DNA from: Liolophura sinensis
Taxonomy: Eukaryota; Mollusca; Polyplacophora; Chitonida; Chitonidae
DNA length: 64,000 bases
Direction of reading: 5' to 3'
Assembly: GCF_032854445.1 (NCBI RefSeq)
Contig: NC_088296.1
Coordinates: 9,706,706-9,770,705 of the forward strand
Each line of letters opens with the position of its first letter. The first letter of the stretch is position 1. The position numbers were made by a program, and so were the translations under genes. Positions 6,629 to 42,524 of the stretch are shown piece by piece. The notes beneath the pieces were generated by a model. It was not told the DNA's origin, searched no databases, and was given only the letters and a program-made list of their open reading frames with translations.

Positions 6629-6655
6629 TTGAGATGTAACAATGAGTTCAAGTCT

Positions 6656-6892: not shown

Positions 6893-6925
6893 AACTTTTT
6901 TTTTTTTGTTTGCGTCTTTTGCCAG
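6893..6925 (+). other. Splice acceptor of the giant exon
   Basis: A long T-rich tract ends in 'gtcttttgccag', with AG at 6924-6925. Reading from 6926 gives ILNEGATGTSDGLIQ in the frame that then stays open for over 24 kb. The open frame extends upstream to an ATG at 6824, but that part reads through the polypyrimidine tract and is almost certainly intron. Confidence 0.8.
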
Positions 6926-9900
6926 ATACTGAATGAGGGTGCCACGGGAACCAGCGACGGGTTGATTCAGCTCCAGAGATACAGACTTGGATTGGAAGCA
7001 GACTCCAGCCTAAGAGAATCCCTCCCGATATCAAGCCGCTACATCAGCGAGCGTTCACGAACAAGCGACCTTTTTGCTCCCTGGAAAGACAGTGAAGATC
7101 GGCTTAATGCTGAACAAAGAATCTGGAGAGGCGGCTTCGATGAAAACACCTCGTCTCTGCAACATGCAGAGACCGTGAGCATCGGAGCTGAAACATTTGC
7201 ATCAAGTTCTGCCGAAGCCATGGCAACCTCGACGCTTAAAGAGACAGACTTTATGTTCAAGAGCTCAAAGAGTGCTGGGAGCTCTACATATTTCTCATCC
7301 AATCAGAATCAGAGATTTTTTTCTAATTTAGTGGAAGACAATTATGAATTGCTTAATAGTGATACAAGACATTCTAGTGACTTTTCCCAGGACGGACATT
7401 CTCATTTGAGGTCAGAACCACCAGTTGACTCAGGAGTACAGGAGTTAAATTCTGATTGGTTAACAGAACGCGGATCTCTTATGTCTTCAGAAGTCATCCT
7501 CAGTACAAGTGGAGTTCACAGTCAGAGGATTTCTGAGTTAGTGAAAACAACCAAGCTGAGAAGCGACGAGTTTCTTCATTATTCTGAATGTAATACTGTA
7601 GAAAAAGCGGCAAGTTCCCTGTCTCCAGAGAAAGAAAACTCACCAGTTAACATAGAGATTGTGAATTCTACTGACCCCAGCCTCAGAAAGTCCGAAGATA
7701 AATTTTCCGATGTGGAAATGGTCGGTAAAAAGCTTTCCGACGAAGATGACTTTGCCTTGGACAGCATGAACGATAGTTACGAAGAGACTGCCAATGACAT
7801 TGGTTACAAAACAGAGGAAGATTATTCGTCTGGGTATACATCCCCAGGAGTCCTCTCCCCAGGGGAAGAAACACGCCCCCTGGTGATTGACTCACCTGAG
7901 GAAAGGGGAACAACTCCAGAGGAGTTGGCAGTTTGGACTTCCCCTCCAGAAGTGTCTGCTGATCCCAACACTGCCCGTCCAGAGATGGACTCAGACATGG
8001 ATCTGAGTGAGTCTATGGCAGATGTGAGGCATTCGTTGGAACAGCAGAAACAAGTGCTAAAGGAACTGTTAGGTTTGGTTTCAGAGGCTGAAAAAGACTC
8101 GGCTCCAGAAAGACATTCTGAAGCAGTTGAAGGTTCTTCCGTGGACTTCCGAGATGGCGAGAATTCTGTTCACTTATCCAAGCATTCTGTCGGATACCTG
8201 TCAGTGGAAGAACAGCGAGAAGTCCGTAACGAGGTTGAAGACCACCGTGTGGACGAATCCTCCATGGTCACGGACAGTATCTATGGATCAGACCGCACAG
8301 AAACAATGCGTTCTGCTTCCTCAACAGACCTTACCACCACAGACACACTGACGTCAGGGTATGGTGAGGACAGCTACGGACTAGATCATTTAGGTCTTCC
8401 CTCAGATCAAGATGTTTCAAAGTCACATGAAGGTGACCAGGAAATGGACTTGAGCTCTTCCATGGCCAATGTGAAGCAGTCCATACAGCAACAGAAGAAT
8501 GTCCTACACGAATTATTAGGCCTGGTGGCAGAAGCAGAACGTGACGTTGAAGACACAGAACCTGTTCGAGGGAATATCACAGGTGATGAGAACCAAGAAT
8601 TTTTTGACCCCCATGAACCGGACAAGACGTTAAAAAAATTAAAGATTCCAGGTAGTAACGAGGATCGGTCACCGACTGACAGGTCGTCTGAAGATAGACT
8701 GCTTTTGTCTAAAACAGATGGAGCTTTTTCCACGTCAGACGATACAAGAGGCTCAGTAACTGATGATACTGTCCAAGGATCACTCACTTGCCACCCAGAT
8801 GTTCATGACCCAAAGAGTCGGGATACTCAGGGACAAGCAAAACGTGAACAAATTCTAAGTGAAAATGAAAGAAAAGAGATTGTAGAAACCACCCATAACG
8901 TGTGCATGTGGGAATCTAGAGAAGAATGGGGAGAAATTGAGCAGCGCAATGTGGTCTCCATCTCAGGAGAAGTGAGTGATATCGAGCGATCAGTGGACAA
9001 TGCATGTGTATCAGGCTTCGAAAGATATGCTGTGGCAGGAAAGGAATCATTTCCAGAGGTTTGTGTTGACCTGGATGATAGGGAGAAAAGTTTTGGTGCG
9101 GTAGCAATTCCAGAAAATCCTGACCAAAGAGCCCCAACTGATCGTTCATCTGAAGACAGGCATCTTGTTGCCAGTGGTGAAGGCGTACCCTCTACATCCG
9201 GTAGTGTGACTGATTTTGAACGGGATATTGAAGAGGGCGATGCATTAGTGTACAATGACAAAGTAGTAGATACACAAAGGGAAAATCTAGAGAGCTGTGT
9301 GGACAAGGCATTATATCCTGACCAAACGTGGTTTGATTCTGAGAGTAGAGACCAGAGTTTTGCGAAAGGTGTGCGTGAATCGATTGAGCAGCAGAGAAGC
9401 ACAGTTCAGGAGTTGTTAGACTTAATGGGTAGAGAGAGTAGTCCCGGATCTTCAGTGGACCAGATGGTTGAAGTGAAAGATAATGAGAAATTCTTTGATC
9501 CACATCAGCCCGACAGAACACTTGATGACCTTCGGATCCCAGGTGATGTGAAGGATAGAACGGCAATTGACTTCTTTGCAGAGGACAGACATCGTTTGGC
9601 CAGAGGAGATGGGGCATTAGCCAAAGCAGGCCGTCGAGAAAGATATACAGGCTCCGATGTGGACGGAGATCGTTCATGGCTGGTAAAGAGTGGTGACGAT
9701 GTTGACGACGTGGTTGCCAATACAGGTGCAATAGTAGATACCACAGATGTTGTGCTTGGGGATATCTGGGAAGAAAAAGAGCAAGAGATCGACAGGCGAG
9801 AAGAAATGTTGGACAACGGAGACGCGGTATTAGGAGAGAGGCCTGTTCTGTCACCAGTAAACAGCAAACACAGAGACGAGCTTAAAAACTCTGAACCGAG

Positions 9901-12900
9901 GAAATTACCTAGTGAGAATGAGCTAAACACTACACAAAGTGTGGAGGTGATGGCAAACAGAATTGCACAAGATGTGTATGCCATCTCAGAGGATGTGGGC
10001 AGTTCAGCGGCAAACATTCCAGTATTAGACTCTACGAGTGCCAAAGAACTTCCCACTTCTACAGAAATTACCTCGGATGAGACAAAAACGGACACAGTTG
10101 ACATTTCTTCTAGATCAGAGGTGTCCCAGACTTCAGAAACTGACACCATAAAAGATTCAGAGAAACAAGGATATACCCAAAGCCAAGAGGAAAGCAAGCC
10201 CGACACATCTGTGTGGAATACACTGTCTGGTTGGTTTAGATTCAGAGGCACTTCAAATCAGTCAGCAGATAATTCACAGGAAACTCAGGTTGGAAGAGGA
10301 CCAGAACCCACTGAAAGTGAGTCAACCGAATTTGATGAGGAAAAACGCATCATGGAGCTTATTGACGGCTTTGATGATTTACATCTGGTTGAAGATGTTA
10401 AGGAAGGTTCTGTTGAAACGCAGATCACAGAAGTTTCTCTTGACACCGAGGAGCCATTGGAGAAGAAAGGGGATACTGAAGATGCAAAACATTTTGACAG
10501 TGTGAAAAAGGAAAATGATGAATGCTACGAAGCTACCCAACAGGTCTTGCAACAGGAAACTGAAACAAGTGTGAGAGATGCACCTGAAGGACTCCAATCC
10601 GGTGAAAGTGTTGCGAGTAAACCGTTAAATGTGATAGATGATAAGTCTGTGATAAACGATGTGAATGAAGAAGAAGTTGACTCTGACTCTGAAAACGATA
10701 AATTTGAAGATACAAGTCGCGATGAAACGACTACTGAACCGAACCTTTTATTTGATGCTCTGCATAAACCTGAAATGGAAGTCGAGACAGAAATCACAGA
10801 TAAAGCTTTGTCATTGCCAAGTGATCAGAGTTCTGTGACTGTCCAAAAACCCGACGTAGGTATGACCATTGAGGATAAATCTGATGTTACGTGTGAGGAA
10901 CAGAAATATTTTGATGATCTATTAACAGATAATAATGCTCCAACAAAAGATACAGACATCGGGATCTCGGCCTTGGATCAAAATGATGTTGGATTAAGTC
11001 CTCCTTTCATATCAGATAGAGAACACATTGATGTTAATGAAGATAAACAAACAGGATCTGATGATGCTTCTGTTGTTACACCATCGTTAAGCAATGATGT
11101 GGAACGGCAAAACTTTGTATCTGTCGACCACTATGAACAATTCTTACCCACTACAACCAGAGAAGAATTTGTTAAAAAGCCAGAGCATACCATTGCTAAA
11201 AGTACGGCAGTAGTTGAAGAGGCGGTTGTGCTTGAGGAAGACATCAGCGATATTACAGGAAGTATAACTGAAGAAGCTAAAGAAAACCTAACTTTGAGCG
11301 CTAGTGACCCGGAGAACATACCCGATGCAGGAGGCGAAGATATACTTGATAACGAAGGACACAGAGAGATAATGACGTCTGAAGATGTTGACACTTCAGA
11401 TACTTTTGTCAGCGACAAAGACATTTCAAATGTAAACAACGTTGGGACTGGAAACGAAGATGTGCCTAACAAAGAGGTTTTGAATGATGGTGCGTTCCAA
11501 GATGTAAAGCAGTCTTCGTTAACAGAAGATATGGAACCTGGTAGCACTGAAAAAGAGACATTCCAGGATTTGAAAGATTCTCAGTCTTCGCCCACAGACC
11601 TTGTGACGCCCAAGTTCTCAGATGATACAGAGAAAGTTGGAGTTTTTCCAACGGAGGGGCCTCAAGACAAGACCGTAGGTGGCATGTCAGCTGAGGAAAC
11701 ATCAGTTCCTCAAGAAAACAATGAACAAAGAGGTGAAGTGGAAGCCACTTTACGACAACTATCTTCACAGAAACAAACCAATATTTCATTTGGCGACGAA
11801 AAGAACTTACCTCACGACACATGCATAGCTTCAGGAAATATTGAAACTGTCCATACTGAGGGCATCTCTTCTGAAGAGCAGTCTTCCAACCGTACATGTA
11901 AACCTAGCGACGGACATGGAGATGATTCATCTGGGTGGGATGCCCTTCCCAGTTGGCGTGGAGGTTCACAGCAGAAGTCCCAACTACAGGTTTGTGAGAC
12001 ATCCCAGTTAACTACCTTCGAAGGAACTAACATAACGTCAGAAGAATCAGTAGATGTCTTCCAGGAAGAAAGCTTATCTGCAGAACATGAACTTGATACT
12101 GAAATAACTAGAGACGATACGAAATCTGTACCAGAAGATTCTGTTCAGACAAATGAAGTTGAAAAAGAATCCAAAGCCAGCTGGAACTTTTTGCCCAAGT
12201 GGATGAGATCAGATCCAAAAGAAACCAAACCAGACAAAATGCATAGCACACCCACTCAAGATTCTGTGGGACAAATCGATCCCGCAAATGCAGGAGATGG
12301 TGAAGTAAGTGATAATGTAGCGGACTCATCAAGGATTGGAGAAGAAAGTCAAGATTGCAAAGAAGCTGGCCTGGAAGATGCTGTTGCGGAAGGTGCAGAT
12401 GAGGAAGTGTCTGTAGAGTCTTCACCTGCATGGAGCTTCTTCCCAAGTTGGATGAGGAGATCAAAACCTCTGGAAACCAAACAAAAGGATATGCAGAAGA
12501 CAGCCTTTCCAGATACAACAGCATTAAGTGAAACGATTTGTGTAGAAGAGGATGCAAACATTCCTGCAGGCGGTGAACCTGCTTCCAAATTGTCTTCAGA
12601 GAGTGCTGAAACCCGTGATGTACTGGAATTTCCTGATAGCCAAGAATGGTTAGATGAAACATCTGCCATGGAAGCAGAGATATTTACCGAAAATGAAACC
12701 AGAAATACTACGCCAGCTAGTACAGAAGTTTTACTTACTTCAGTAGAAATGTCCACGGCTGCAACTGGAAGCGTAATAGAGCATGAAAGCTCTATTGAGA
12801 GGGAAGCTAAAGATGTTTCTCTTCAAGCAGCGGCGCTTGAAATTCCAGCCGCAAGTCGTGCTGTTAGAGCTCAGACGCCAAGCATGTTGGAAATGTTTGA

Positions 12901-15900
12901 CGAGCTTGAGGCTGACCATGTCGATGCAGTAGGAAAATACAAGGACATTGTTCACATGACTGCAGAAGAACTAGAGTCTTATGGTGAAGTTGCTGCTATA
13001 ACTGAAAATGTGGACTTTTTGGACGAAGATTCCGAGGACCATTCAAATGTCAGTGTATCTGTGACAACTGATGTACAGCCTGAGGAAGAGGCTGCATCCA
13101 CCACGACAGTTGGTGTCTTGGAAGAAAGTGTGGAAACAGAGAATCTGTCCGAAAACCCTAATAAGGAAAATCTCGACTGGCAGCAAGCTTGGATGTCAGA
13201 TGAATCTCAACAAGATAGCTGTGCAGCACAGGCTATCGTGACTGAACAAGATGCTGTTGGTCACGAAAAACTAGTAACAGAAGATCAACAGTTCACAGCA
13301 AACGATGCCGCAAACAGCGAAAATGTTCATGATAAAACCAAACCCGAAGTGCAGTTTGAAACAAGCATGGGTATTCTTCCAGATGAAAAGCACACATCCA
13401 GCACTTTGTCTGAAGGAAAATCAGTTCAGAGTCCAGAAGAAAGATTGCGATTAGCACATAAAGAGATCTATGAACAAATATTAGGCCAGTCTGAAGTTAC
13501 ATCACAAGCTTCTTTGTCTGGAGTCGACCTAATGCAGGATAACATATTGGTGGAACAAGCAGCTTTGTTTAGACTTGAGTCGGAAGCAGGCCACTTCGCG
13601 GTTATGCTGGAAGGGATGTCTCAAGAAAGACCGACACAAACTTTTCATCCAGAAGAAACAGCTACATCGGAAATTCGGGTTGACGAAGAAGAAATATCAG
13701 AAAGTCAACAGACACCTGAAAGTAAGTCAGAAGAAGTTATTGTATCCGAAGGTCACATGGAAGATTCACTTGTATGTGAAAGAGTGACACCAGAAAAGAC
13801 GCCTGATGTGACCGTTCGGGAAAACCCGATAGAAGTATTGTCATCTGAAACAGATTTGATGCAGGACACATTAGATGAAGACAAGCAGGTTGCTTTTAAA
13901 TTGCAGATAAAGTCAGAAAGCTTTGCTGTGATTTTGGAAGATGTTTCATCAGATGATCAGCCCGAAGAATTGCTCGAATCTGACAGTCCCCAAGAAAAAC
14001 TGTCAATGAAAGTATTATCGGAAAATCAGCAAGAACAAACGCAGATAGCAGAAAATGAACGAGAAGAAACGCTGATTTCAGAAATTGAGGCAAATGATAC
14101 TGGACCAACAGAAAGTAAGATGGGAACAAGTGTTTGTGCATGGTCAGAAACACCATTACAAGAAAATCAAACAGAGATATTACCAACACCTGAAAGTCAA
14201 CAAAGTACTATGGGCCAATCTGAGGAACCAAGGATAGCAAGAGGTCAACCAGGAGAAATATTCGAATCAGAAATCCTCATGGAAGACTCTCCTGTATTGG
14301 ACAGTGCACGAGTTGAAAAATCTGTTGTGGAAAGCCATGTTGAAGACGTGTCTGCGTCTAAAATAGATTTTATGCAGGACACCTTAGGCGTAGATCCGCA
14401 AACTCTGTTAAGGTTACAGACGCCATCAGAAGGTGTTGATGTGAAACAAGTTTTCTCATCGGAAGATGTACCAGATAATTTGCCAGGATCGGTCAGGCCT
14501 CTGGAAGAAACAGAATATCCTGAAAACAAAACAGCAATATCAGAGAGTCAGTCAGTGGAGACGGGAGAATTAGAAACTGGAGAAGTGAAGGTACTAGATC
14601 ATAAATCACATGAAATATCAGAAAGTAGGGTAAATCAGATGGAAGATAAAGAAACAGAAGAAACTCCACCAGAAGTAACTCTGATATCAGATAGTAGGGT
14701 AAATCAGATGGAAGATAAAGAAACAGAAGAAACTCCACCAGAAGTAACTCTGATATCAGAAAGTAGGGTAAATCAGATGGAAGATAAAGAAACAGAAGAA
14801 ACTCCACCAGAAGTAACTCTGATATCAGAAAGTAGGGTAAATCAGATGGAAGATAAAGAAACAGAAGAAACTCCACCAGAAGTAACTCTGATATCAGAAA
14901 GTAGGGTAAATCAGATGGAAGATAAAGAAACAGAAGAAACTCCACCAGAAGTAACTCTGATATCAGAAAGTAGGGTAAATCAGATGGAAGATAAAGAAAC
15001 AGAAGAAACTCCACCAGAAGTAACTCTGATATCAGATAGTAGGGTAAATCAGATGGAGGATAAAGAAACAGAAGAAACTCCACCAGAATTAACTCTGATA
15101 TCAGAAAGTAGGGTAAATCAGATGGAAGATAAAGAAACAGAAGAAACTCCACCAGAAGTAACTCTGATATCAGAAAGTAGGGTAAATCAGATGGAAGATA
15201 AAGAAACAGAAGAAACTCCACCAGAATTAACTCTGATATCAGAAAGTAGGGTAAATCAGATGGAAGATAAAGAAACAGAAGAAACTCCACCAGAAGTAAC
15301 TCTGATATCAGAAAGTAGGGTAAATCAGATGGAAGATAAAGAAACAGAAGAAACTCCACCAGAAGTAACTCTGATATCAGATAGTAGGGTAAATCAGATG
15401 GAAGATAAAGAAACAGAAGAAACTCCACCAGAAGTAACTCTGATATCAGAAAGTAGGGTAAATCAGATGGAAGATAAAGAAACAGAAGAAACTCCACCAG
15501 AAGTAACTCTGATATCAGATAGTAGGGTAAATCAGATGGAAGATAAAGAAACAGAAGAAACTCCACCAGAAGTAACTCTGATATCAGATAGTAAGCCAGA
15601 ACAAGTCCTTGTATCAGACACCGATTCTCTTTTATTAAAAGGTGTGACAGAAGGAAAACCATCAGACACGACGGTTGTTCAAAATGAGGCCAAAGAAGTA
15701 TTACCTGAAAGGGATTTGGTTCAGGACACCTTAGGTGAAGAACAGCATGTTGTTTTTAGATTACAAACCCAAGCAGAACGTTTTGCTGTGATGTTGGAAG
15801 ATGTTGCAGTAGAAAGTCAACCAGAAGAAACTGTGGAATCAGAAAGACTATTAAACGAAACATCAATATCTGAAATTATGCTGGAGGATGTCCACGAATC

Positions 15901-18900
15901 AGAAACCTGGACATCTGAAAAGCAACCAAAAGAAGCACTACTACCAGAAAGTCAGTCAGCACATACACAGCCAACAGAACACAGAACAGAAGAAACGTTT
16001 GTGGGAAGTCAGGTAAATGATACTGGCGAAACAGAAAGAGACAAACAAGACAGTCATCCGGAAGTAGCATTGTTAGCAGATAGCAGGGCAAAAGAAGCTC
16101 TCGTATCAGAGCTTGAGCGTCAAGTAGAGAATGTGATAAAAGATATGCCATCAGACATAACAGGTACGGAAAGCCAGGCAGAAGTGTTATCTGCAACAGA
16201 TTTGGTAGAGGACACGTTCTGTGAGGACCAGCATTCTGTATTCAGATTGCAGACACAGGCAGATGGCCATGCTGTCACGCTGGAAGATTTTTCATCAGCG
16301 TATCAGCCAGAGGATTTAACGGTCTGTGATAGTCTTCAAGAAAAAACTGTGATATCAGAAAGTCAGTCTGAACCGAAAGATGTATCAGAATATGAACCAG
16401 AAGTATCATTGATATCAGAAAACCGGTTAAATGAGGCTGAAAAACCAGAAAGTCAAACAGCATTATTGCCATTAGAAGTGGAACTGGAAGGAGTCCTGAC
16501 AAATGAGCGTGGAGAAAACGAAAGGTGTGACATTCAGCAGCATGAAACACAATCTTCAGTATTCTTGTCAGAAGAAGCTCAAGTATCGAAAGAAAATATG
16601 GAAGATTCACTTGTAATTAAAAGTGAGACACCAGGAAAAACATGTAACATGGCAGGAAGCCTAGTGGACCATGTGTTATGTGAAACAGATTTGGTACAGG
16701 ACACATTAGGAGACGATCAAAAGACTGTTTTTAGATTGAAGACACAAGCAGAAGGCATTGCAGTGATGTTAGATGCTCCTTGTGCAGAAGAGGATTTGTC
16801 AGAAAATCAAACAGTTGAAATACTGGCATCTGGTTATCTTCAAGAAAATACCAAGACCTCACAAAGTCCATCTGAAGAATTATCAATTAGAGAAAGTGAG
16901 CCAGGAGAGAGCGAGGAATTCGAAAGTGAGCGAGCAGAAACAGTGATTCCAGAAACACAAACAGGTGCGAGTAACACATCAGAAATCCCAGAAGCACTGG
17001 CAACAGTCGTCCAACAAAAAGAAACCTTGATAACAGATATCCAGGAAGTGAAAACATGGGACAAGCAGCCAGAAGAAATACTTATTTCAGATGTCAGATT
17101 AGAAGACCCTTTGATAGAACATATTCTTAAAGAAGAATCTGAAAACCAACCTAAAGAAACAACATTCGTAGGCCAGTCTGAAATAGCACAAACTCCAGAA
17201 AATCAAGAAGGTACCCTAGAAAGCCTATCGGAGGAAACCTGTACATCAAAGAATCAGTCAGATGTGCTCGTATCGAGAAATCTGACGGAAGATTCACTTT
17301 TGACAGAAAGTGTACCAGATGAAAACACTTCGGAAACCAGTGATATTCAAAGCCAGTTGGAAGAAGTTTGTGGATCTGAAACCGATTTGATACTGGACAC
17401 CTTAGGTGAAGACCAGCGGGCTGTTTTTAAGTTACAGACACAGGTGGAAAGCTTTGCTGTGATGGTTGATGCTTCCCCTCTGGAACATGTTTTATTATCA
17501 GAAAAGCAAGCAGAAGAATCTCGGCCATTAGAAAATGAACAAGGGGATACAGTATTAATGTCACAGAGTCAGGCAGCAGAAATACTGATATTAGAAAGTC
17601 AGACTAGTGAGAGTGGAGCAGCGGAGTATCTGACAGAAGAAACAGCATTTGACAGGCAACTGGAAGAAGCTCTGATTAGAAAGAAACAACAAGAAGAAAT
17701 GTACATCAGTACTGAAGAAGAAACTGTCATATCATATTGTCTCCCGGAGTTGTCGGAAAGTCTACAAAAAGAGACACATTTGTCGGAAAGCCAGTCAGAT
17801 GAAATATCGGTATGTGAAACTAATTTGCTTCAAGATGAGTCATTTGAATCCCAGCATGAAATCTTCAGGCTTCAGTCACAAGCTTCAAGTATTCCAGTGA
17901 TGATAAGTCAGCCTTCACAAGCGAGAAGTTTCATACACCGTGAACAAACGGAAGAAAACTTTAAGTCAGAACCAGTCGTGATGTCAAAAAGTGAACAAAC
18001 AGTTACTGGTCAGGAGCGGAGAGACGAGAGCACCATGGAAGACATTTTTCAACCTAATGGAGATGACCAAACAAGGGTTGATACTGTCAGCAAAGTCATA
18101 GCTGTTTCTGATCTTCAAAATTTATCGGAGACTGCAGTCACACACCACGAAGATGTTTTGATTGGTAATGCAACTATTTTCTCAGCCTTTGATGAGCTTG
18201 AAGAGGATCACACCCAAATGCTGGACAACAGCAGAGCAGTGACTGCAGATAGCGAATACCCAGAAATTCCAGTTGTAGGTTCTTCGTATCTAAGACCATC
18301 ACTTAGCTCTGACAATTCAGCTTCTGCTTTGGATGGTGAATCCAACAGTTGGGAAGATCTTGTTGATAATGAATCTGACGTTGAAGTAGGAATTGATGCT
18401 GTTGCATTTGAAAATGATGAGAGTATGGATTCAACCATTCCAGGCAAAGAGGATAAAAGACCACTTGAGGAACAAATTGCAGAAGTCGACTGCGCTGTAA
18501 TCGGAGAAATCGAAGATTCAAAACCAGCTTTTGTCACATTGGAAGAAAATGCCAGAAGAAACCTTGAAGATCAAGTTGATGAGATCGATAAGCTTTTGGA
18601 TAATGAAATTTTCATCAATCAGAGTTTGCATTCTCCTTCCTTGACAGAAGACATCAGTAATGGCTTAGTTTTCCAGACTGAGTCAGATTCTTCTGTATTA
18701 GCAGCAACAAGTGCAGTGACAGAGATTGGTAACAATATTCCGTCAACCGTTTCTGAAGCTTGTATTCAGGATGATTCATGGAACCAAGACAAATCAGAAC
18801 TAAATTCGGGACAATCAGGCAGTATTACCACTCATGAATTTGAGCCACAAGCACCTGCTGAGACACAGGCTTCGTCTATCAACGGGATTTTTGATTCAGA

Positions 18901-32990: not shown

Positions 32991-33979
32991 TCTATCAGAC
33001 GTTAACTCTTAGAGCTAATGATGACAAACCAGTTCCTGAACCACAGATTAATTCTGTTGTTGAAATGGAGGCAGGTGTTGGCGAATCTTTTGAGGTTGTG
33101 GATCCGAATCTTCAGCAGGACGATATGCAAGATGCTTCCAAACACCAGCAGAGTATAGTAGAAGCTTATCTAACAACGGAACACACAAAACCAGTTTCTT
33201 TGATAACAGGACAAGAAAGTGATGAACAAAAAGCGGCAGTGACGTCACAAATAAAGGCCTTTGTGGAAGCTGTGCCAGAACACAAGTTACTTTACAAAGT
33301 CATGACTGACTACATCGTCGATGAAAGAAGAAGGGGCAGTGGATCTTTACCAGGAAGTCTAACACAGTCTATTTGTGAAGATAGTAGCCACCCTGATGTC
33401 GTTTCTGCTACATTCTGTCAAATGGAAGTGCCAGAAATAAACTACGTGAGCACATATGACCTGCCTGCTGATGGCCTCCCAGATTTTGAAAGCATATGCA
33501 CTGAGAACGACAGTGTGTTTACAACTCCAGATTCTGATATGGATAGACGAACCTACACCAACATGATGTTATTGTCATTCAAAGAGCAGGAAGGACGTAC
33601 TGTTGTTACAACACAAACCCATCTCTCAGACAATGCAAAAGACAAGGAAGAGCTGCATGAAGAGTCCGAGGAAAAACAGATGTTTGAAGGATCAGGAGAA
33701 AGGGAGCCATCAGTTGAAAGGACAGAGGAGTTTATATCTTCATCAGAAAGACAGGTATACTCAACAAGTATGCTTGTGTTCAAGTTAAACAGATGGAAGA
33801 CCACAGAAGATGTAGAAATTACAGCCCGAGAGAAATCTGTTGACAAGGAAGATATTGGAGCCTCCGGTGAAAATGAGCTGTATTCAAGACAGTGCACAGG
33901 GAACAGAGATGACACCGATGAAGAGACTCACACTGAAACAATTCAATACTTCGTAGGCGTTAGACCAGGAAACCAGTAG
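31328..33979 (+). CDS. Giant protein continued, segment with EERRMQ repeats
   Basis: The frame returns to that of the first segment. The join lies near 31389-31400, where a missing base would link QAEQ to ECVDESLDKCYVPDWLD. The segment carries about seven of the nine SxEERRMQ modules, a YFMGSTLQYIG motif, and PDWL motifs (YVPDWLD near 31428, TVPDWLEAP near 31765). Both frames are open from 31328 to 31403, so the true coding start of this part is near 31397. It ends in a stop at 33977-33979, although the adjacent frame continues with similar composition. Still acidic and without known domains. Confidence 0.72.
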   Translation: MCPTNRLSRLDILLRNNAGRTTECVDESLDKCYVPDWLDNHVIEPTEEQISSNQAVVSEANADTTGGSPFVASVPQIPDSGAIESKNKNLVSSEDRRMQEDHKDLKENAEEYFTGSSIEFIGNTTERQAILSTSVKDETPDFAYQTVPDWLEAPAKQFSEEGQTLSSANDNLSLEDRRMQALHNDVNRMRDDGPLMTPETVKTVVSSAFGQDVPGEQKDYDKAGDHLLSAEERRMQARALRPNVFDADAQEFTGLELAIAGCTRPADHERPVGDRDDEDSADPITEESRRIQTNTLKEGNEQISLKPDNAIDAEIQRLAEESVIEDAGNIRPMDQSCEDHDLLSTEERRMLAKALAENAIGAAEQSLAEESLLEVAGIKTSANETCEDDDLLSTEERRMQAKALAQTAIDGARQSLADETLLEGAGITQSVDQTVEDLGDIFAKDLQSTEERRLQVERLGQYALDAERRRLAEQTVSCDEQTLHSPKVSEADFKETESKETTAETTSEQSREEQKRILAASEERRMEGNNHDAHEDDEEYFMGSTLQYIGMSPELYQTLTLRANDDKPVPEPQINSVVEMEAGVGESFEVVDPNLQQDDMQDASKHQQSIVEAYLTTEHTKPVSLITGQESDEQKAAVTSQIKAFVEAVPEHKLLYKVMTDYIVDERRRGSGSLPGSLTQSICEDSSHPDVVSATFCQMEVPEINYVSTYDLPADGLPDFESICTENDSVFTTPDSDMDRRTYTNMMLLSFKEQEGRTVVTTQTHLSDNAKDKEELHEESEEKQMFEGSGEREPSVERTEEFISSSERQVYSTSMLVFKLNRWKTTEDVEITAREKSVDKEDIGASGENELYSRQCTGNRDDTDEETHTETIQYFVGVRPGNQ

Positions 33980-36900
33980 CACATTCCAAGCGGGGTTTGA
34001 AAATCCTGAAAGTATGGAAGTAACCTGGAATATTGATGGCGTTGAGCGAAGACAGCAGGAAATAACAGAACATCTACCACAAATGAGTACACTTATTGAC
34101 ACAGATGTGAAACGTGAATCTACCTCGGCCCAAGAGGCACAGATCGATGTAACTGATGTGCCTATTTCGGACAAAGACACGCGAGATGAGGCCATAGACG
34201 AACAGTCGTTAAGTGTGAAACAACCGCTCAGTGAAAGTGAAAATTTGAGGGTGACAGAAATAGACACGTTAAGTGGTGATGAACCATTTGATGAGAGTAG
34301 TGATGCATTAGAGCCTCTGCCCAGCATTGATCATGTGGAATGCCACCTACCTGGCATTGGTGTGTTTGGCAGTAGGGAAGCTATGACGAGAAGACATCAA
34401 GGAGAAGAGCCAGCTTGTCCAGATACTGCTGTACAAGAATCCGTGCATGTTACTGATGAAGTTGTCATTCGTTCTGAAAGTAAAGGTGATTCGACCTTAG
34501 GAGAGGCATCGTGGGAAGAAGACAGTACCAAGAGTACCGAACTAAATATGAGCCGAGCAGAAGGTTCAGAATCTCATACACATTTTCTCCATGAAGAGGT
34601 GACCACAGGAAATGAAAGTTTTGAAGTGAAAGCTGTACAAGAAAATATCACCTCAGTGGAAAAGCCAGCTGTAGACCAAAGCTCACTTCATGGACTTTTT
34701 CAGGAAACTTTTGATTATCCATCAGCTGCTGAGAGTGTTGAGCAAGAACAAATGTTTTCAGAAGAACCAGATAGTGTTGAGTGTGTTCAGGATGTTGTTG
34801 AACAAAACACTTTAGCAACAGTGGATGAACAACTCACAGCTGGACAAACTGAAGAGTTTGCAGTAGTAGATTCGCCCTCTGACCAGATGCTACCCACTGA
34901 ACAACACCAGGAACCTCAAGGGCTCTCAAGTATCGATCATGTGGAGACACATCTTCCAGGATTATTTTTCTCTAGCTGTGAAGTTCGTCAAAAGCAGTCT
35001 AAATCCTCAGTGGAAACGTCTTCTTCAACAGACAAATCAGAAATCTTGAACCCACCAGATGTTGACCTTACAGAAATACAAATCACATCTGATCGGGGTA
35101 CAACTGACCATGAAATAATGCACTCTACAGCTGCTGAAATTGTTGTTGAGTGTGATCAGTCAAAAACTGCTACTAAAAAAGAGGATGAACTTCTCAATGA
35201 GCCTTTTGTGGAAATGGGCGAGTTTGCAGAAGCGCAGATAACAGCTACACGTGAGAACACCGTGCAAAGAGATAAAAATACGGATGAAATTGTACCATTG
35301 GATAACACAACTTCATGTGCTACTGGTGAAGATACTTCAGAGGATCTCAGAGAAGTGTTGGGTTCCCAGTCTGAAATTGTTACTGAAACGCACCGAGATG
35401 AAGATAGATGTTTAGGGACAAGTGAGGCACAGCATCTTATGGGCACAAACCTTGACCACAATTTACCGTCCATTGACCACATTGAGACACATCTTGACAA
35501 AGACATAAAACTAGCTGTAACAGGAAAGGCTGGTGGCATCCAAATAACTGCCCAAGATGATCTAAGCCCGACTCGGGGAACTGTGGTACAGAACACCTGC
35601 CTCATGTTGGCCTCTGAACAGGGTCCTAGCATTGCACCCTTGTCTGACAGTATTGGTATTAAGGTGTCTCAGGGAACAGTGGAGCATGCCATTGATGGAG
35701 ATCAAGCCGACAAGCTTGGAGCAACTGCCATGCCAGAGTCTGCGACATTTGACATTCAGGAATTAGAAAGGCAGCTGTTACTGGCGACGCAGTGGAGGAC
35801 TCTTGGAAGAATTGACGAGGAGGCGGTACATTCAACATCAACTTCAACATCAGGAGAGCCCGAAACACCCGATGTGGAATCTAAAGATGACTCATCACTC
35901 TACCATGAAGTGGAAAAGGCTTTAGCTGAACTCTGCAGTGAAGAACAGGCTTTGGCCTACTCGATTTCACCATATGCCGAAGGTCTGGAAATAGCAGAGA
36001 ATTTGTCCTCGTTGGATTCATCCTCTACTCCAGCACAAGAGACTGAAATAGTTTTTGTGGATGAAAATCCATGTGTACAGAGTAACATACGTGTAGAAAG
36101 CAAACCAATTGCTCCTTACTCTGATAGTAGTGAAGATGAATCTACTGACATGGCCTCTGTTGTTAGTGTGACTGGACTAAATGACGATGAAGAGGACTTC
36201 CGAGAGGAGTCTGTGACTCAGCTTGACGAACAAGGTATTGAAGTGGAGAAATCTTACTCTGACCACACCAGCGAAATTAGCCTGTCAGATTCAGATGATA
36301 GTAATGCTTATAATGGAAGTGAGGTGAAGCAAGATGCTGTTGCAAGTGCATCAGAAGGCGAGGCTGAAATAACACCAATTACTGAAGTCCTAGAAACGCC
36401 TGTGATTCCAGAAGAAAGAGAGGAAGAAGAGGTGAACGATGTCCCTAGTCACAGTGAGCAGTCAATGATGTCATCTGATGACACGTCAGAAAAATCAGCT
36501 CCATATTTTATTGAGGAACTACATACTTCTGAAGAATCCTTACCAAGCATTGAATTCGACTGTTTTGATGGTGATGAGGATCGCTTCCAGGATGTGGCTG
36601 CTGAAGAATTGGCTGAGGTTAGAAATACTGGTGTGGATAACAGGAGACATGAAGGTCCTGATGCTGAAATTTCTGATGATACTGAAAAATTGGAAGGAAG
36701 AGGATCAGGATCTCCAGAAAGTGAGCAGATTGGTGTTACCAGTATTGAGACGGAATCACTCCCCACAGAAGCACAACCAAGTACTGATAATGTTAAAGAC
36801 ACGGCAGATTTGTCAGCTTCGGCTGCACAGCCAATGTTAATACCCGACTCATATGTGACAGAGGGGCAACCTGGTCTGGACAAAAATGAGATGTTGAATG

Positions 36901-39900
36901 TAGACCCAGATGGATCGGTCAAAGAACCGAAACATTCAACAGAGATGGCGGGATCTTTGACAATGGAACTAACAAACACTGATATGACTGGTCAAGAGAC
37001 AGTATCAGACATCCAGACTAAGGTGTTGCTGTCAAATGCTTCAGAGGCATACTCAGCACAATTGCCACAGATCATAGATGCTGAACGTACATCAGAAGTG
37101 CCCGCAAGTACTGAAATAGAAGCACAACCATCGGATGCTCTACGCCGCACAGGAGAAGGAGAGAAAGAACAGTCAGGAGTGAACGTCAGTGTTCTAGAAA
37201 CTGAACGAAGTTTTGAAGGGGATATTCCTAAGACTGAATCAACACCAACATGGGAAACCTCTGAAGAACTGGGCAAACAGTCAGAACCTGTCACTGACCA
37301 AATTGAAGACACTGGAACATCTGTTGGGTCGAAAGTAGTGGGTCAGCAAGTAGGGGAATCGCCCCAGTGCGATGCAGCAGCGTTATCAGGAAATTCAGAC
37401 ACTGATGCGTCTCTCAGTGATACAGACTCCTCTGTAGACTTCTCTTACGAAAGCGGTGCAGATGATGAATTGGAAGTTACTCCAGAAGTCTCCATGATTA
37501 AATTTCAGTCAGAACAAGAACATGGGGGAGTGGAAAATGTAGGTGTATTCTCAGAAGAGTCAAATAGACTTCATTTGAGCACAGATTTACCAGAAGACAG
37601 TTTACAGCTTCAGGCAGAAGAGGCACTGGACGAGCGAAAAGACTCCATCAAAGATGCAAGACCAGTGTTGAGTGTGTCGACAGATGATACAGCTCCAGAC
37701 TGGTTTGAAGTTACACCAGAAGAACGGACTAAAACCGAAACCAACGTTATTGATTCTGGGATAGATGTATTGGTGTCCCAACAGCAAACTTGGAAAGAAA
37801 AGCCAAAAAACCAGGCGAGTAAACAGAAACAGGAAACTCAAGAAGTGGTAGATGAGCCAGAGGAGGATACTGCACCACAAATGTTTGATGTAGAGTCTGA
37901 GAGAGCGAGTAGTCTAGAAAGAGATTCAATGTCTCAAGTCGATATGGAAATAACTGAAGCTAGTTTGAACTCGATACAAAATGCAGTGGCAAACCAAGGA
38001 CTAAACAAGGGCACAAATTTCCAATCCGAACAAAACCTTGGAAATGAAATATGTGCTGAAAAATCATTGAGCCAAGGAATACAAAAAACTCTACACACAA
38101 ACCAGGATGTTTTAATCTGTGAAGAACATGAGCCTAATGCAAAGGCTGGAATTGGATTAGAGATAATTGAAGACACAAGACATGAAGCTGCAGAGACGCC
38201 AGAGCCGGCATATTCAAGTGAAACTGATGACGGTTTCGTTCACATGCCTCCAGAGAGTCCTCAGCAGTTTGCTTCTGAATTGAGAAGTGTGACGAGAACT
38301 GTCAGTAATTCTCCTCTAGACTCATCCACTGCAGATTTAAGCTATGGATACATCTTTGGTGATATGAGTGGAGTTTTATCATCTCAGACCACTGAATGTG
38401 TAGATGAGGACATGTCAACACCTCATATTTCCACACCTATCAAGGCTGGAGACTTGGATGCTACATTTGGGTCATCAGAGTATGAAAGGATTTCTGTTTC
38501 TCAGGATATGACAGTCAGCATGGAAGGTATCACAGAAACTGTTGAAGGCCTGAGTACTGAATTGAAACACCAAATCTCCAAAGATTTTGAAAAACCAGAA
38601 GAACTAAAGATAGTTTCTGAAGCCATTAACGAAGCTGACAAAAAACCTGAACTGTACTCAAGAACTCTGGCTGCCCCACTTCCTGGCATTGATGAAGCCG
38701 TGGTGGAATCCACACCTGTAAGAAAGCTAGCTAATGAAAAAAGAGAAAATTCCGAAGATGTTCAGGAACAGTTCCATTATGAATATGAGTATACAGGGGT
38801 TGAACAGACAGATCTCTCAATCCAAGAAGGAAATGAAGATACACAGCGAGTGCCAGGAGTTTACACAACGACACAGTCAGCTACATTGTCTGGCATACAA
38901 GACACAGCTGTGCCACCTATTTCAGTTAGAAATCTTGCAGACAGCTTTGAAATTTTGAAAGAGGAGTCGTTTTCTGTGACATCTGAAACAGAATGGAGCG
39001 AAAAGGAGAAAAATCGTGTTTCAAGTATTCCTGGAGTTTACACAAGGTCACTATCAGCCGCCTTGTCAAGCTCCACAGAATGTGTTGAACCTTCAACTCC
39101 TGTGCGAAAGTTAGCTGCAAGCCCCGATACGATGGAATGGGAGAGACCAACTGGAGAAATAACCGACACAAAAAGTGATGAACTTCAAGCACGTCGTTCT
39201 GTTCTGTATACAGAGGTTGGTGAATCTTCAACCACAGTGTGTAAGTTGGCAGACAGCTCTGAAAATAGCCAAAACTCAGGTGCCTCAAAGGAAGTTTCTA
39301 CGAAGGAACAAGAAGCACATGTTCCTCATATTCCAGAACTGTATACAAGATCACTATCGGCTGCACTGTCCAGCTCAAGTGAAGTTGTGGAACCATCAAC
39401 ACCTGTGAGAAAGTTGGCTGAAAGTTCTGACCCCACACTTGATGCTGCAGAAATGGAGACGAGTGAGTTAAGATCTGGTCAAGATGCGACAACAAAGGGA
39501 ACATTTATCCCTGAGCTCTACACAAGATCTTTATCAGCTGCTCTGTCAAGTTCTACTGAAGTTGTTGAGCCTTCAACACCAGTACGGCAACTGGCGGCTG
39601 ATACATCTATGGCATGGGGAGGAGAGACTTTTGCAGAGATTATGGGTGACTCTGCTGCCATTGAAGAGAGAGAGACACATGCCACATTACCAGACCACGA
39701 TTCCATGTTGCCATCTCCCCTGTCCGTTGCAGACGGTGTTTACCTCTCATCTTCAATGGAAGAACGGAAATCAAATGATACAGAGACTGAATTTACTTCT
39801 GATGGTCAAGAAGTGGAAGTAACTGATGTCTCAGGTGGACCAGAAGTTGAAGTCAAACCAATACCAGATGACCAGTCTAATTTAACACCATCAGGAGTAT

Positions 39901-42524
39901 CAGAAGTACGCCAGGGGATATTATCGCCTGCGCTGTCTGACACTCAGGAAATCCTGCAACAGACGACATCCGTTAAAGAAGTTGCTGTCGAAAGTGGTCT
40001 ACATGATCAGTGGACTCTACTGGATGTTGAAAGATCACCAGAGAGACCAACTGGAGAAATAACCGACACAAAAAGTGATGAACTTCAAGCACGTCGTTCT
40101 GTTCTGTATACAGAGGTTGGTGAATCTTCAACCACAGTGTGTAAGTTGGCAGACAGCTCTGAAAATAGCCAAAACTCAGGTGCCTCAAAGGAAGTTTCTA
40201 CGAAGGAACAAGAAGCACATGTTCCTCATATTCCAGAACTGTATACAAGATCACTATCGGCTGCACTGTCCAGCTCAAGTGAAGTTGTGGAACCATCAAC
40301 ACCTGTGAGAAAGTTGGCTGAAAGTTCTGACCCCACACTTGATGCTGCAGAAATGGAGACGAGTGAGTTAAGATCTGGTCAAGATGCGACAACAAAGGGA
40401 ACATTTATCCCTGAGCTCTACACAAGATCTTTATCAGCTGCTCTGTCAAGTTCTACTGAAGTTGTTGAGCCTTCAACACCAGTACGGCAACTGGCGGCTG
40501 ATACATCTATGGCATGGGGAGGAGAGACTTTTGCAGAGATTATGGGTGACTCTGCTGCCATTGAAGAGAGAGAGACACATGCCACATTACCAGACCACGA
40601 TTCCATGTTGCCATCTCCCCTGTCCGTTGCAGACGGTGTTTACCTCTCATCTTCAATGGAAGAACGGAAATCAAATGATACAGAGACTGAATTTACTTCT
40701 GATGGTCAAGAAGTGGAAGTAACTGATGTCTCAGGTGGACCAGAAGTTGAAGTCAAACCAATACCAGATGACCAGTCTAATTTAACACCATCAGGAGTAT
40801 CAGAAGTACGCCAGGGGATATTATCGCCTGCGCTGTCTGACACTCAGGAAATCCTGCAACAGACGACATCCGTTAAAGAAGTTGCTGTCGAAAGTGGTCT
40901 ACATGATCAGTGGACTCTACTGGATGTTGAAAGATCACCAGAGAGAGGCATGCAGAACTCTTTAAAAACACACGAAGCTACATCAGACGATTTGGCGTCT
41001 TCTGATGCTAACGCCAGCCTTAGAGAATGGACCGTAATTGAAAAAGAAGACACTGTAGAGCACCATATAATCACAAGTGCTAGGGCAGGAGCAAGAAAAC
41101 CTGACTCTTTTAATGTTTCATCTGAAGCAGTCCAGCGGCCCAATCTTGATCATAGGAATATTCAAGCTGAGGGAATATGTGCTCACAAATCAGAAGTTTC
41201 TTATAAGAAGAGTTCTCAGACTGAACCAGTTTTGTCTGAGAAAGCATCACATTTGTCATGTGAGATGAAAGACACCTCGTCTTTCAAGGTATCTCAAGCA
41301 GAAAACGTCGAAAGATCTTTCAAGCGGAAGGCCAAGGTGAGAACAAAAGTAAAGACTTTTCAAACAGCTTCTAGTGATGTGACCTTTGAACCGTTTAAAA
41401 ATGACATTCCATTCCCACAAGGTGATGATAGTGGTGATGAGTTTAGTTTATTCAAGCTTGTTGGAACCGGTGATTCTGTTGTGAACAAACCTGTTCCACG
41501 AGAGGAAACTGGGTCAACACAGAAACGAAAGAAAAAGACAAAGAAGAAGAAAAAGCCCGATGAAGACGATGCCAGGGAGCCACAACTGCCCGTCGTGGGG
41601 GTGGAAGTATGTTCAGAGCGATCGGCCCCGACATCAGCGTCTGACAGCAGCCCTGGTGAAGTTGAACCAACGTTTGGGAGGTTTTCACCACTGATTGACA
41701 ATGAAGACACAATGCAAACTCCAAAAGATTCAGATGTTGAAAGTGTTACACGTACCAAAGGTAGCATTGTCAGTGAAAGTCAGAGTGAAGCAGAATCAAC
41801 ATATATTGATACTAGCTACACCAAGGTTATCAGCTTTCCGAAAAAGAAGAAACACAAGGACGTGCCCGGTACACCGCCTGTAATTGTTCAAACCCCAGTT
41901 GGTCTAGAACCCTCAACCTCACCTGCCTACTTTGATTTGCCAGCTTTTGGATCAGCTGGGTTGGAATGGGGATATGCAGACATCATGGAGACGTCACCAG
42001 GAGCCATTGCAGATCTGTCGTCTGAAAAGCCTTCAGAGTTGGAAAAGAAAGAACGCAAGTCACGCTTGACTGAGCTTAGCACCAAAAAGAAAGAAAAGTC
42101 AAAGTCTAGTGAGTCGACAAGCAAATCGTCAACTGATTTTCTTACTCTTCCTGGTGAAGAGCATCTTGTCCCTGGTCAGTCTAGGTCCCGTAGTTCAGAC
42201 TCATCCCGCACAGAACGCAGACGAGTTCAAGACTCTGTCTCGCCCTCCAGGCTTAGAACGGCTGAGATTCCCGAGAGAATTCTACAGGAAATTGAAAATG
42301 AACAAAGAGAACGAGAAGAGCGCCTGAGCCAAACGAGAGAAATTTACAGATCGTCAAGTTTTGATCCAACACCGGGATCAAGAAAACAAGTCTCGCCTGG
42401 TCCAGAAGGAGAAGTTTGGACAAGCGGGCAAAGTTCAAAGAAGAGGCGCCAAAGAAAGAGTCGAAGTTCTTCTGTTCCTTCTGCTGCCAGGAAGCGCAAG
42501 CCAAGGAACAAGAACAAGAAGTAA
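33960..42524 (+). CDS. Giant protein continued, C-terminal part with basic tail
   Basis: After a frame switch between 33953 and 33976 the reading LDQETSSTFQAGFENPES leads into an open frame of about 2,850 codons ending in TAA at 42522-42524. It contains SIDHVETHLPG motifs (34.3-35.5 kb), a Ser/Glu/Asp-rich middle, the SLSAALSSS/STPVRKLA modules including a perfect 900-bp duplication (38.6-40.9 kb), and a C-terminal region (41.3-42.5 kb) that changes to Lys/Arg/Ser-rich sequence. The tail holds KRKKKTKKKKKPDEDD, FPKKKKHKD and RKRKPRNKNKK, which look like nuclear-localisation or nucleic-acid/tubulin-binding patches. No known fold is recognised. The stop is followed by non-coding sequence, so this is the true C-terminus. 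Confidence 0.83.
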   Translation, partial: LDQETSSTFQAGFENPESMEVTWNIDGVERRQQEITEHLPQMSTLIDTDVKRESTSAQEAQIDVTDVPISDKDTRDEAIDEQSLSVKQPLSESENLRVTEIDTLSGDEPFDESSDALEPLPSIDHVECHLPGIGVFGSREAMTRRHQGEEPACPDTAVQESVHVTDEVVIRSESKGDSTLGEASWEEDSTKSTELNMSRAEGSESHTHFLHEEVTTGNESFEVKAVQENITSVEKPAVDQSSLHGLFQETFDYPSAAESVEQEQMFSEEPDSVECVQDVVEQNTLATVDEQLTAGQTEEFAVVDSPSDQMLPTEQHQEPQGLSSIDHVETHLPGLFFSSCEVRQKQSKSSVETSSSTDKSEILNPPDVDLTEIQITSDRGTTDHEIMHSTAAEIVVECDQSKTATKKEDELLNEPFVEMGEFAEAQITATRENTVQRDKNTDEIVPLDNTTSCATGEDTSEDLREVLGSQSEIVTETHRDEDRCLGTSEAQHLMGTNLDHNLPSIDHIETHLDKDIKLAVTGKAGGIQITAQDDLSPTRGTVVQNTCLMLASEQGPSIAPLSDSIGIKVSQGTVEHAIDGDQADKLGATAMPESATFDIQELERQLLLATQWRTLGRIDEEAVHSTSTSTSGEPETPDVESKDDSSLYHEVEKALAELCSEEQALAYSISPYAEGLEIAENLSSLDSSSTPAQETEIVFVDENPCVQSNIRVESKPIAPYSDSSEDESTDMASVVSVTGLNDDEEDFREESVTQLDEQGIEVEKSYSDHTSEISLSDSDDSNAYNGSEVKQDAVASASEGEAEITPITEVLETPVIPEEREEEEVNDVPSHSEQSMMSSDDTSEKSAPYFIEELHTSEESLPSIEFDCFDGDEDRFQDVAAEELAEVRNTGVDNRRHEGPDAEISDDTEKLEGRGSGSPESEQIGVTSIETESLPTEAQPSTDNVKDTADLSASAAQPMLIPDSYVTEGQPGLDKNEMLNVDPDGSVKEPKHSTEMAGSLTMELTNTDMTGQETVSDIQTKVLLSNASEAYSAQLPQIIDAERTSEVPASTEIEAQPSDALRRTGEGEKEQSGVNVSVLETERSFEGDIPKTESTPTWETSEELGKQSEPVTDQIEDTGTSVGSKVVGQQVGESPQCDAAALSGNSDTDASLSDTDSSVDFSYESGADDELEVTPEVSMIKFQSEQEHGGVENVGVFSEESNRLHLSTDLPEDSLQLQAEEALDERKDSIKDARPVLSVSTDDTAPDWFEVTPEERTKTETNVIDSGIDVLVSQQQTWKEKPKNQASKQKQETQEVVDEPEEDTAPQMFDVESERASSLERDSMSQVDMEITEASLNSIQNAVANQGLNKGTNFQSEQNLGNEICAEKSLSQGIQKTLHTNQDVLICEEHEPNAKAGIGLEIIEDTRHEAAETPEPAYSSETDDGFVHMPPESPQQFASELRSVTRTVSNSPLDSSTADLSYGYIFGDMSGVLSSQTTECVDEDMSTPHISTPIKAGDLDATFGSSEYERISVSQDMTVSMEGITETVEGLSTELKHQISKDFEKPEELKIVSEAINEADKKPELYSRTLAAPLPGIDEAVVESTPVRKLANEKRENSEDVQEQFHYEYEYTGVEQTDLSIQEGNEDTQRVPGVYTTTQSATLSGIQDTAVPPISVRNLADSFEILKEESFSVTSETEWSEKEKNRVSSIPGVYTRSLSAALSSSTECVEPSTPVRKLAASPDTMEWERPTGEITDTKSDELQARRSVLYTEVGESSTTVCKLADSSENSQNSGASKEVSTKEQEAHVPHIPELYTRSLSAALSSSSEVVEPSTPVRKLAESSDPTLDAAEMETSELRSGQDATTKGTFIPELYTRSLSAALSSSTEVVEPSTPVRQLAADTSMAWGGETFAEIMGDSAAIEERETHATLPDHDSMLPSPLSVADGVYLSSSMEERKSNDTETEFTSDGQEVEVTDVSGGPEVEVKPIPDDQSNLTPSGVSEVRQGILSPALSDTQEILQQTTSVKEVAVESGLHDQWTLLDVERSPERPTGEITDTKSDELQARRSVLYTEVGESSTTVCKLADSSENSQNSGASKEVSTKEQEAHVPHIPELYTRSLSAALSSSSEVVEPSTPVRKLAESSDPTLDAAEMETSELRSGQDATTKGTFIPELYTRSLSAALSSSTEVVEPSTPVRQLAADTSMAWGGETFAEIMGDSAAIEERETHATLPDHDSMLPSPLSVADGVYLSSSMEERKSNDTETEFTSDGQEVEVTDVSGGPEVEVKPIPDDQSNLTPSGVSEVRQGILSPALSDTQEILQQTTSVKEVAVESGLHDQWTLLDVERSPERGMQNSLKTHEATSDDLASSDANASLREWTVIEKEDTVEHHIITSARAGARKPDSFNVSSEAVQRPNLDHRNIQAEGICAHKSEVSYKKSSQTEPVLSEKASHLSCEMKDTSSFKVSQAENVERSFKRKAKVRTKVKTFQTASSDVTFEPFKNDIPFPQGDDSGDEFSLFKLVGTGDSVVNKPVPREETGSTQKRKKKTKKKKKPDEDDAREPQLPVVGVEVCSERSAPTSASDSSPGEVEPTFGRFSPLIDNEDTMQTPKDSDVESVTRTKGSIVSESQSEAESTYIDTSYTKVISFPKKKKHKDVPGTPPVIVQTPVGLEPSTSPAYFDLPAFGSAGLEWGYADIMETSPGAIADLSSEKPSELEKKERKSRLTELSTKKKEKSKSSESTSKSSTDFLTLPGEEHLVPGQSRSRSSDSSRTERRRVQDSVSPSRLRTAEIPERILQEIENEQREREERLSQTREIYRSSSFDPTPGSRKQVSPGPEGEVWTSGQSSKKRRQRKSRSSSVPSAARKRKPRNKNKK
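34322..35510 (+). repeat. Three SIDHVExHLPG motifs
   Basis: PSIDHVECHLPGIGVFGS (near 34322), SSIDHVETHLPGLFFSS (near 34928) and PSIDHIETHLDKDI (near 35470), spaced about 550-600 bp. Hydrophobic and His residues stand out from the acidic background, which suggests a short binding motif. Confidence 0.75.
38650..40505 (+). repeat. SLSAALSSS / STPVRKLA protein modules
   Basis: Module: PELYTRSLSAALSSS followed by xEVVEPSTPVRKLAxS. Clear copies lie near 38652 (diverged), 38856 (diverged), 39031, 39334 and 39511, then again near 40234 and 40411 in the 900-bp duplicate. A shortened copy (VLYTEVGESSTTVCKLADS) starts near 39205 and again near 40105. The STPVRKL core resembles an S/T-P phosphosite next to basic residues; that role is inference. 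Confidence 0.82.
39141..40946 (+). repeat. Perfect 900-bp in-frame tandem duplication
   Basis: The sequence starting 'gagagaccaactggagaaat' at 39141 recurs at 40041 and runs without any difference I can find to about 40946 (including the shared 'gagaga'). 900 bp is exactly 300 codons. Perfect identity means a very recent event, a polymorphism, or an assembly duplication. Confidence 0.93.

Follow-up and report, generated by a model that had tools for sequence, protein, structure and literature searches.

We analysed a 64,000-nucleotide stretch of the chiton Liolophura sinensis genome (C2:9706706-9770705, contig C2 being NC_088296.1 of the 609-Mb assembly GCF_032854445.1), which we call the window; positions without a prefix are window positions, and negative ones lie upstream of it. 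On its forward strand, 6926-42524 forms a 35.6-kb coding, exon-like unit of about 11,850 codons, interrupted by three frame breaks, and a series of exons ahead of it is predicted to encode TDRKH (Papi). TDRKH is a small, conserved, mitochondrial scaffold of the PIWI-interacting RNA (piRNA) pathway that helps to finish anti-transposon RNAs. The giant unit runs from an acceptor at 6926 (ttttttttttttgtttgcgtcttttgccag/ATACTG) to a stop at 42524 through the forward stop-to-stop frames 6812..31102 (8,096 codons), 31313..33979 (888 codons) and 33957..42524 (2,855 codons), the first two bridged by the third reading frame, which carries coding text and is open over about 31068-31394. At the local base composition, the first of these frames would be open by chance with a probability of about 10^-231.

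To score coding potential we used a two-fold cross-trained codon model on 300-nt blocks and compared all six frames. The claimed frame was positive and the best of the six in 118/119 blocks, and the single failing block (30926) spans the first frame switch. None of 90 non-coding blocks, the same blocks that supplied the background model, was positive in any forward frame, and coding was called in 90 of the 91 blocks lying outside tandem arrays. The segment 6926-7219, which was kept out of training, scored +19.1 bits (none of 2,000 random non-coding pieces exceeded 0.6) and 6812-6925 scored -26.7, so that the coding signal begins at 6926 and not upstream. Tandem-repeat periods were divisible by 3 in 12/12 rows within the block versus 9/20 outside, several rows overlapping and describing one array. 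A first-pass annotation made from the letters alone had claimed near-continuous coding between this acceptor and this stop, with three frame switches and about 11,900 residues; the block scores, the stop-to-stop frames with their bridge and the computed length bear it out, and confirm that the 35.6 kb form a single exon-like unit. Its rank among the largest animal exons is plausible; the largest exons known in human genes, those of MUC16 and titin, are about 22 and 17 kb.

In a search for TUDOR domains, two half-domains turned up on the same strand, ahead of the window by about 11 kb. We read 50 kb upstream and obtained ten forward-strand exons with agreeing junction phases, spanning C2:9668547-9707603 (from window position -38158). 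Exon 1 (C2:9668547-9668643, counted from the start codon) carries a hydrophobic anchor and an in-phase donor. It is followed by exons 2 (C2:9687300-9687424), 3 (C2:9693070-9693277), 4 (C2:9694438-9694580), 5 (C2:9694847-9694994), 6 (C2:9695217-9695419), 7 (C2:9695799-9695971), 8 (C2:9697804-9697868) and 9 (C2:9698825-9698976). Exon 10, at 800..898 (C2:9707505-9707603), has a phase-0 acceptor (tcccacag/GAT) and carries the end of an extended Tudor domain (DVDINAEMVRRGYAAWDPEPPRVSAGGLGDLSQ). The reading frame continues into it from exon 9, the alignment of the joined protein to the TDRKH chain 6b57 extends through this part, and its codon score is +7.0, a value reached by 0.15% of null pieces. 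On its own, the 42-residue peptide of this exon at 0.8 kb gave weak and unrelated matches in the PDB.

In total 471 residues precede the giant exon, or 438 without exon 1. The joined 438 residues matched KH_1 in two stretches (3.6e-33) and TUDOR in one (5.7e-28), over the Pfam cut-offs, which is the TDRKH/Papi layout, a pair of KH domains and then a single Tudor domain. The best PDB matches were three 'Tudor and KH domain-containing protein' chains (E 5.4e-57, 8.6e-57 and 2.6e-55). All of the 8 best rows were TDRKH, its homolog 5vqg or GH18329p, which we take to be fly Papi, and the first other Tudor protein, TDRD1, followed at 2.6e-14. For the KH part, FUSE-binding protein 1j4w (6.4e-16) ranked above the TDRKH KH domain 1we8 (3.7e-14). 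The SWYRA and VDFGDNG segments are kept in the alignment to the TDRKH chains. Exon 1 (MIEISATGKIILAVAVPTTVFFIYWLLKRNEE) reads as a membrane anchor (17-residue mean hydropathy 2.22) followed by basic residues and a strong phase-1 donor, and presumably resembles the vertebrate TDRKH N-terminus; it came first among 3 forward-strand candidates in 30.6 kb (the reverse strand gave 0) and was the best of 6 at looser settings. The nearer 10.6 kb held one candidate only, which was unconvincing and was set aside.

When the genome was searched with the TDRKH body, 9 of 25 matches were the C2 exons (80-99% identity) and the other 16 were Tudor matches elsewhere at 23-48%, making this the only TDRKH copy found in the assembly. 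By sequence comparison, then, the ten exons appear to encode a full TDRKH/Papi with a predicted membrane anchor, two KH domains and an extended Tudor domain that is closest to that of TDRKH and not to those of other Tudor proteins. The first-pass annotation had recognised no family in the product. That holds for the part encoded by the giant exon, whose pieces searched in Pfam and the PDB matched nothing over the cut-offs, and fails for the gene, whose preceding 471 residues match TDRKH/Papi; the family was missed because the recognisable part is encoded mostly upstream of the window. As a separate observation on Tudor proteins, C7:25641026-25645534 (minus strand) holds a 1,883-codon open frame with eight TUDOR matches, so that one exon of a multi-Tudor protein is densely packed with domains, and a ninth match near it has internal stops.

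Exon 10 and the giant exon each seem to need the other. The giant frame needs an upstream start because it codes from 6926 and its first ATG does not come before 7220. Exon 10 needs a downstream end, unless it is read through, because it has no stop ahead of its donors; left unspliced, its reading ends at the stop 983-985. The donor boundary 898/899 and the acceptor boundary 6925/6926 are both phase 0 and on the same strand. The proposed donor, CAG/GTATCC (899..904, forward strand), is among the five GT sites that are phase 0 within the open frame of exon 10 (803, 824, 866, 899, 917) and scores 1.0 on the rough matrix from which these donor scores come; the exon 2 donor of this gene scores 0.7. 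An alternative donor, AAC/GTGAGT (927..932, forward strand), is phase 1 and scores 3.3, and the 27 bases at 899-925 look coding (score 5.0, reached by 0.3% of null pieces). Alternative use of the two would be the simplest account of both being there.

Enumeration of exons leaves 899..6925 (forward strand) as the putative last intron, filled with repeats, pieces resembling short interspersed nuclear elements, and tandem arrays. Between 935 and 6880, three phase-1-to-0 and three phase-0-to-0 candidates for an intermediate exon all had negative coding scores, 2 phase-1-to-0 candidates of like kind also turned up in a control stretch of intron, and at stricter thresholds no candidate was found before 6926. 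As the end of the protein, the giant exon fits in phase, and a short end at 983-985 is also possible. The earlier suggestion that the exon at 0.8 kb is probably part of the same gene is supported, and we strongly infer a gene structure that joins TDRKH to the giant exon. Past the end of the frame, 42525-44200 contains a single A(A/T)TAAA hexamer, the ATTAAA at 42934..42939 (forward strand), which matches the poly(A)-signal consensus.

The predicted tail of about 11,850 residues (1.31 MDa) has an isoelectric point of 4.1, with 25.1% D+E, 8.0% K+R and 0.6% Cys, and is made up of four young arrays plus older, diverged repeats, as the earlier description of an acidic, low-Cys product with layered repeats had it. 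All of its repeats lie on the forward strand. A helix-like unit MDLSESMADVRHSLEQQKQVLKELLGLV and a linker unit DRSPTDRSSEDR, 3 copies each, occupy 7985..9616, and four tryptophan motifs of the pattern W(N/D/S)x(L/F)(S/P)xW lie in 10214..12451. A unit around DLVQDTLGEDQHVVFRLQTQAERFAVMLED recurs in eight diverged copies over 13466..17956. Tandem-repeat searches gave a 69-bp array of 14.2 copies (23 aa; 14615..15593), a 114-bp array of 7.0 copies (38 aa; 18840..19633) and a 36-bp array of 14.7 copies (12 aa, DDTAAGEVAETH; 28985..29514); the 33-bp array (11 aa, ITAEKPVLDEE-like) has about 174 units over 5.7 kb (22581..28321). Self-comparison also revealed an exact 906-bp direct repeat with an in-frame offset of 900 (39141-40046 and 40041-40946), which could reflect a very recent in-frame duplication or, alternatively, a misassembly.

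Constraint at the protein level shows in the diverged repeats. In 8/8 families, which were chosen by protein similarity (a choice that favours low pN) and some of which have 3 copies only, the proportion of synonymous differences (pS, 0.44-0.91) exceeded that of nonsynonymous ones (pN, 0.24-0.46), and codon position 3 changed most; three families had a pN/pS of 0.32-0.36, and the other five one of 0.42-0.62. For the DLVQDTLGEDQHVVFRLQTQAERFAVMLED unit, 7/8 copies entered this comparison. By charge and hydropathy, 228/236 tail windows were classed as disordered versus 2/8 windows of the TDRKH body. Pfam searches of eight tail pieces (covering the tail except about 14.4-15.6, 18.8-19.6, 22.5-28.4 and 31.1-31.3 kb) found no family over the cut-off, and three of three pieces searched against the PDB had no match at E up to 0.1. 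The best of the weak Pfam matches, RDM3_C on the 36-bp array at 1.9e-5 and Fan1_SAP at 0.0013, fell below their cut-offs and were rejected. Searched against the genome, the C-terminal 1,655 residues matched only themselves, and the first 2,500 matched themselves and three stretches of their own 8,096-codon frame at 15.5-16.8 kb; neither piece thus has a paralogue outside this exon.

We also compared the exon with giant coding exons known from other genes. Those that are held back by SAFB proteins are described as including the testis-preferred NASP and the spermiogenic CLIP1, giant cassette exons other than that of MAPT are reported to have more than 33% A and purine-rich enhancers, and the ANK3 giant exon is given as 7.8 kb (PMC10901741); longer internal exons are also described as more often encoding disorder (PMC9825244). 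The composition here agrees with the SAFB-type description. The giant exon is 36.1% A with 3.40 GAAGAA per kb (34.5% and 3.92 per kb without the 33-bp array), and GAAGAA occurs at 0.00 per kb in the last intron and 0.34 per kb downstream; five TDRKH body exons have 30.3% A and 0.00 GAAGAA per kb. Acceptor-like sites are scarce in the giant exon (0.28 per 10 kb versus 1.72 and 3.35 outside), and few internal acceptors would help it to stay whole. Clearing of splice sites would concern acceptors only, because donors are denser inside than outside; acceptor scarcity and donor density both follow partly from purine richness.

Taken together, we judge it probable that this locus is a mollusc TDRKH (Papi) gene with a 35.6-kb last exon, which would add a giant, disordered and acidic tail, perhaps by regulated splicing; that the product acts as a mitochondrial germ-granule scaffold is conjecture. 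Several observations weigh against this interpretation. Donor 899, with its score of 1.0, is weak, and 917 is weaker (-0.4). A better-scoring phase-0 donor at 824 (ATG/GTGAGG, 5.4) would clip VRRGYA from the Tudor/SN domain; it leaves the odds of a TDRKH with a giant tail unchanged, because it would join the same two parts. The donor at 927 does not agree in phase with 6926 and, if joined to it, meets a stop at the fourth codon, and the phase 0/0 match by itself is a 1-in-3 chance. Consensus donors are denser in the exon than outside it (4.5 versus 1.72 and 0 per 10 kb, threshold 7). The choice of repeat families mentioned above tilts the constraint estimate, and the young arrays are less constrained, with pN/pS of 1.10 (38-aa), 0.68 (11-aa), and 0.51 and 0.48 (the other two). 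AlphaFold2 gave no confident fold for 8 copies of the DLVQDTLGEDQ unit, the commonest of the diverged repeats (predicted local distance difference test score 62.5, predicted template modelling score 0.17), and we know of no binding partner for any of the tail motifs. Finally, the tail is interrupted by the three frame breaks, and the assembly holds no haplotig or second copy with an intact frame.

The chief rival is that two neighbouring genes lie here, TDRKH ending by a short terminal exon or at the stop 983-985 and the giant exon having a promoter and first exon of its own. We regard this as unlikely. It would suit the coding look after 899, which runs to the GTGAGT donor at 927, a donor that cannot be joined to 6926, and the scanned tail pieces, which match neither the KH nor the TUDOR family. 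But it leaves 935-6880 without a coding-like exon and 6926-7219 clearly coding ahead of any ATG in its frame, and a direct phase-0 fit exists. If the tail were separate from TDRKH, the locus would still have an exceptionally long coding exon. That the gene is instead a giant one of the ankyrin, mucin or titin-like kind is very improbable: a giant exon with acidic repeats and E/K/P/V-rich 11-mers would be in keeping with it, yet the upstream exons match TDRKH and the eight tail pieces (array regions excluded) yielded no family over the cut-off, with no Ig/FN3 or mucin/VWD-type domains among them. We rejected a giant ankyrin as such, since the genome has 8 ZU5 matches and not one is near the window; those on this contig are separated from it by about 6.6 Mb, at C2:3.06 Mb (UPA was not searched).

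Two further explanations concern the frame breaks. The switches are confined to about 31068-31100, 31310-31397 and 33957-33977, amid diverged EDRRMQ, EEYFMGSSLEYIG and VPDWL repeats (31065..33979, forward strand), and short introns were rejected for breaks 1 and 3, whose intervals of 33 and 21 bases are too short for an intron. We give even chances to sequencing or assembly error, with indels causing the breaks and wrong copy numbers inflating the length, which is compatible with a giant-tailed TDRKH. The exact 906-bp repeat, the 5.7-kb array of 33-bp units and the cancelling of breaks 1 and 2 within 330 bases of each other all speak for it; it would explain the breaks and some of the array length but not the exon, given the coding calls in 90/91 non-array blocks and the constraint on the diverged repeats. 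It seems considerably less credible that the giant exon is decaying, the breaks being true mutations and the present protein stopping near 31,100 or not being made. Three breaks in 35.6 kb, none of them falling on a long homopolymer on visual inspection and all in a region present once in the assembly, would agree with decay, but the 11.4 kb past the first break keeps high-scoring frames with just two more breaks, and the short-range cancelling of the first two tells against it as well. Base-call errors and real mutations are indistinguishable here because the assembly has a single copy of the region, its one match to the break region being that region itself. If the first break were real and fixed, the tail would stop after about 8,060 residues.

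Apart from the exons of the gene, a long antisense open frame lies in the intron before exon 10 (about 7.7-8.7 kb of the upstream sequence L001, minus strand), with a 344-residue stretch starting MATPRKSQ for which Pfam gave nothing at E up to 0.01. Downstream, tandem arrays of 35-, 42- and 80-bp units occupy 43148-44011, 55957-57950 and 59527-60233, pieces resembling FLYWCH and PHD domains but below the Pfam cut-offs lie at 50050-51547 (minus strand) and are perhaps remnants of mobile elements, and 55705-55904 is a gap of 200 N. Elsewhere in the genome, C8:37880506-37891931 (forward strand) carries eight tandem molluscan haemocyanin matches over the cut-off in open frames of 429-529 codons each, an eight-unit gene that fits the molluscan origin of the DNA.

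If TDRKH and the tail are translated as one, across the three breaks, the product would be a protein of about 12,300 residues. In mouse, a scaffold role has been described for TDRKH, which is anchored to mitochondria, recruits MIWI and tethers PNLDC1 (PMC6411938). We conjecture that the tail would extend such a scaffold, as a very long, negatively charged and multivalent tether or brush around germ-cell mitochondria that reaches far from the mitochondrial surface, which would suit holding germ granules or spacing mitochondria. Its repeated short motifs (the W-motif, FMPxDYD, DHxExHL, RSLSAALSSS and EDRRMQ) could act as docking sites, and the bulk acidic repeats as spacers grown by in-frame duplication. 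A phase-0 donor, likeliest 899, would lead to the giant form, and donor 927 or read-through to a short form of about 500 residues. More speculatively, and at present we would sooner doubt it than believe it, a splice switch at exon 10 might decide, in this mollusc lineage, whether TDRKH is made in its ordinary form or as a 1.3-MDa acidic polymer, among the largest animal proteins, that is rooted in germ-cell mitochondria and organises the nuage between them.

TDRKH and giant coding exons are each known, and what would be new is their predicted combination, TDRKH with a 35.6-kb terminal exon. We found no report of a giant TDRKH in the open-access literature as available to our search, subscription papers and protein databases lying outside its scope. 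If the structure is true, a roughly 20-fold larger TDRKH would be an unexpected route for the evolution of germ-granule architecture, an extreme natural test of splicing a 35-kb purine-rich exon, and a test case for the growth of terminal exons by in-frame duplication.

With known TDRKH/Papi proteins the gene shares all of an N-terminal hydrophobic anchor, two KH domains and an extended Tudor domain at one locus. Known members are small, at about 500-580 residues, whereas the terminal exon here would bring in about 11,850 more, making the protein roughly 20 times the usual size. Like the giant exons of ANK2/ANK3, MAP2, NASP and CLIP1, the exon here is a very long coding exon amid ordinary ones, with more than 33% A and rich in GAAGAA; it differs from that of ANK3 (7.8 kb) in its 35.6-kb length and in including the stop codon, and its splicing is predicted from sequence. 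Disordered nuage proteins such as Ddx4 resemble it in belonging to the germ-granule pathway and in having a disordered tail. The Ddx4 tail reportedly condenses through arginine-glycine (RG) and phenylalanine-glycine (FG) contacts, whereas the tail here is far longer, strongly acidic and poor in RG, with 20 such dipeptides in 11,852 residues.

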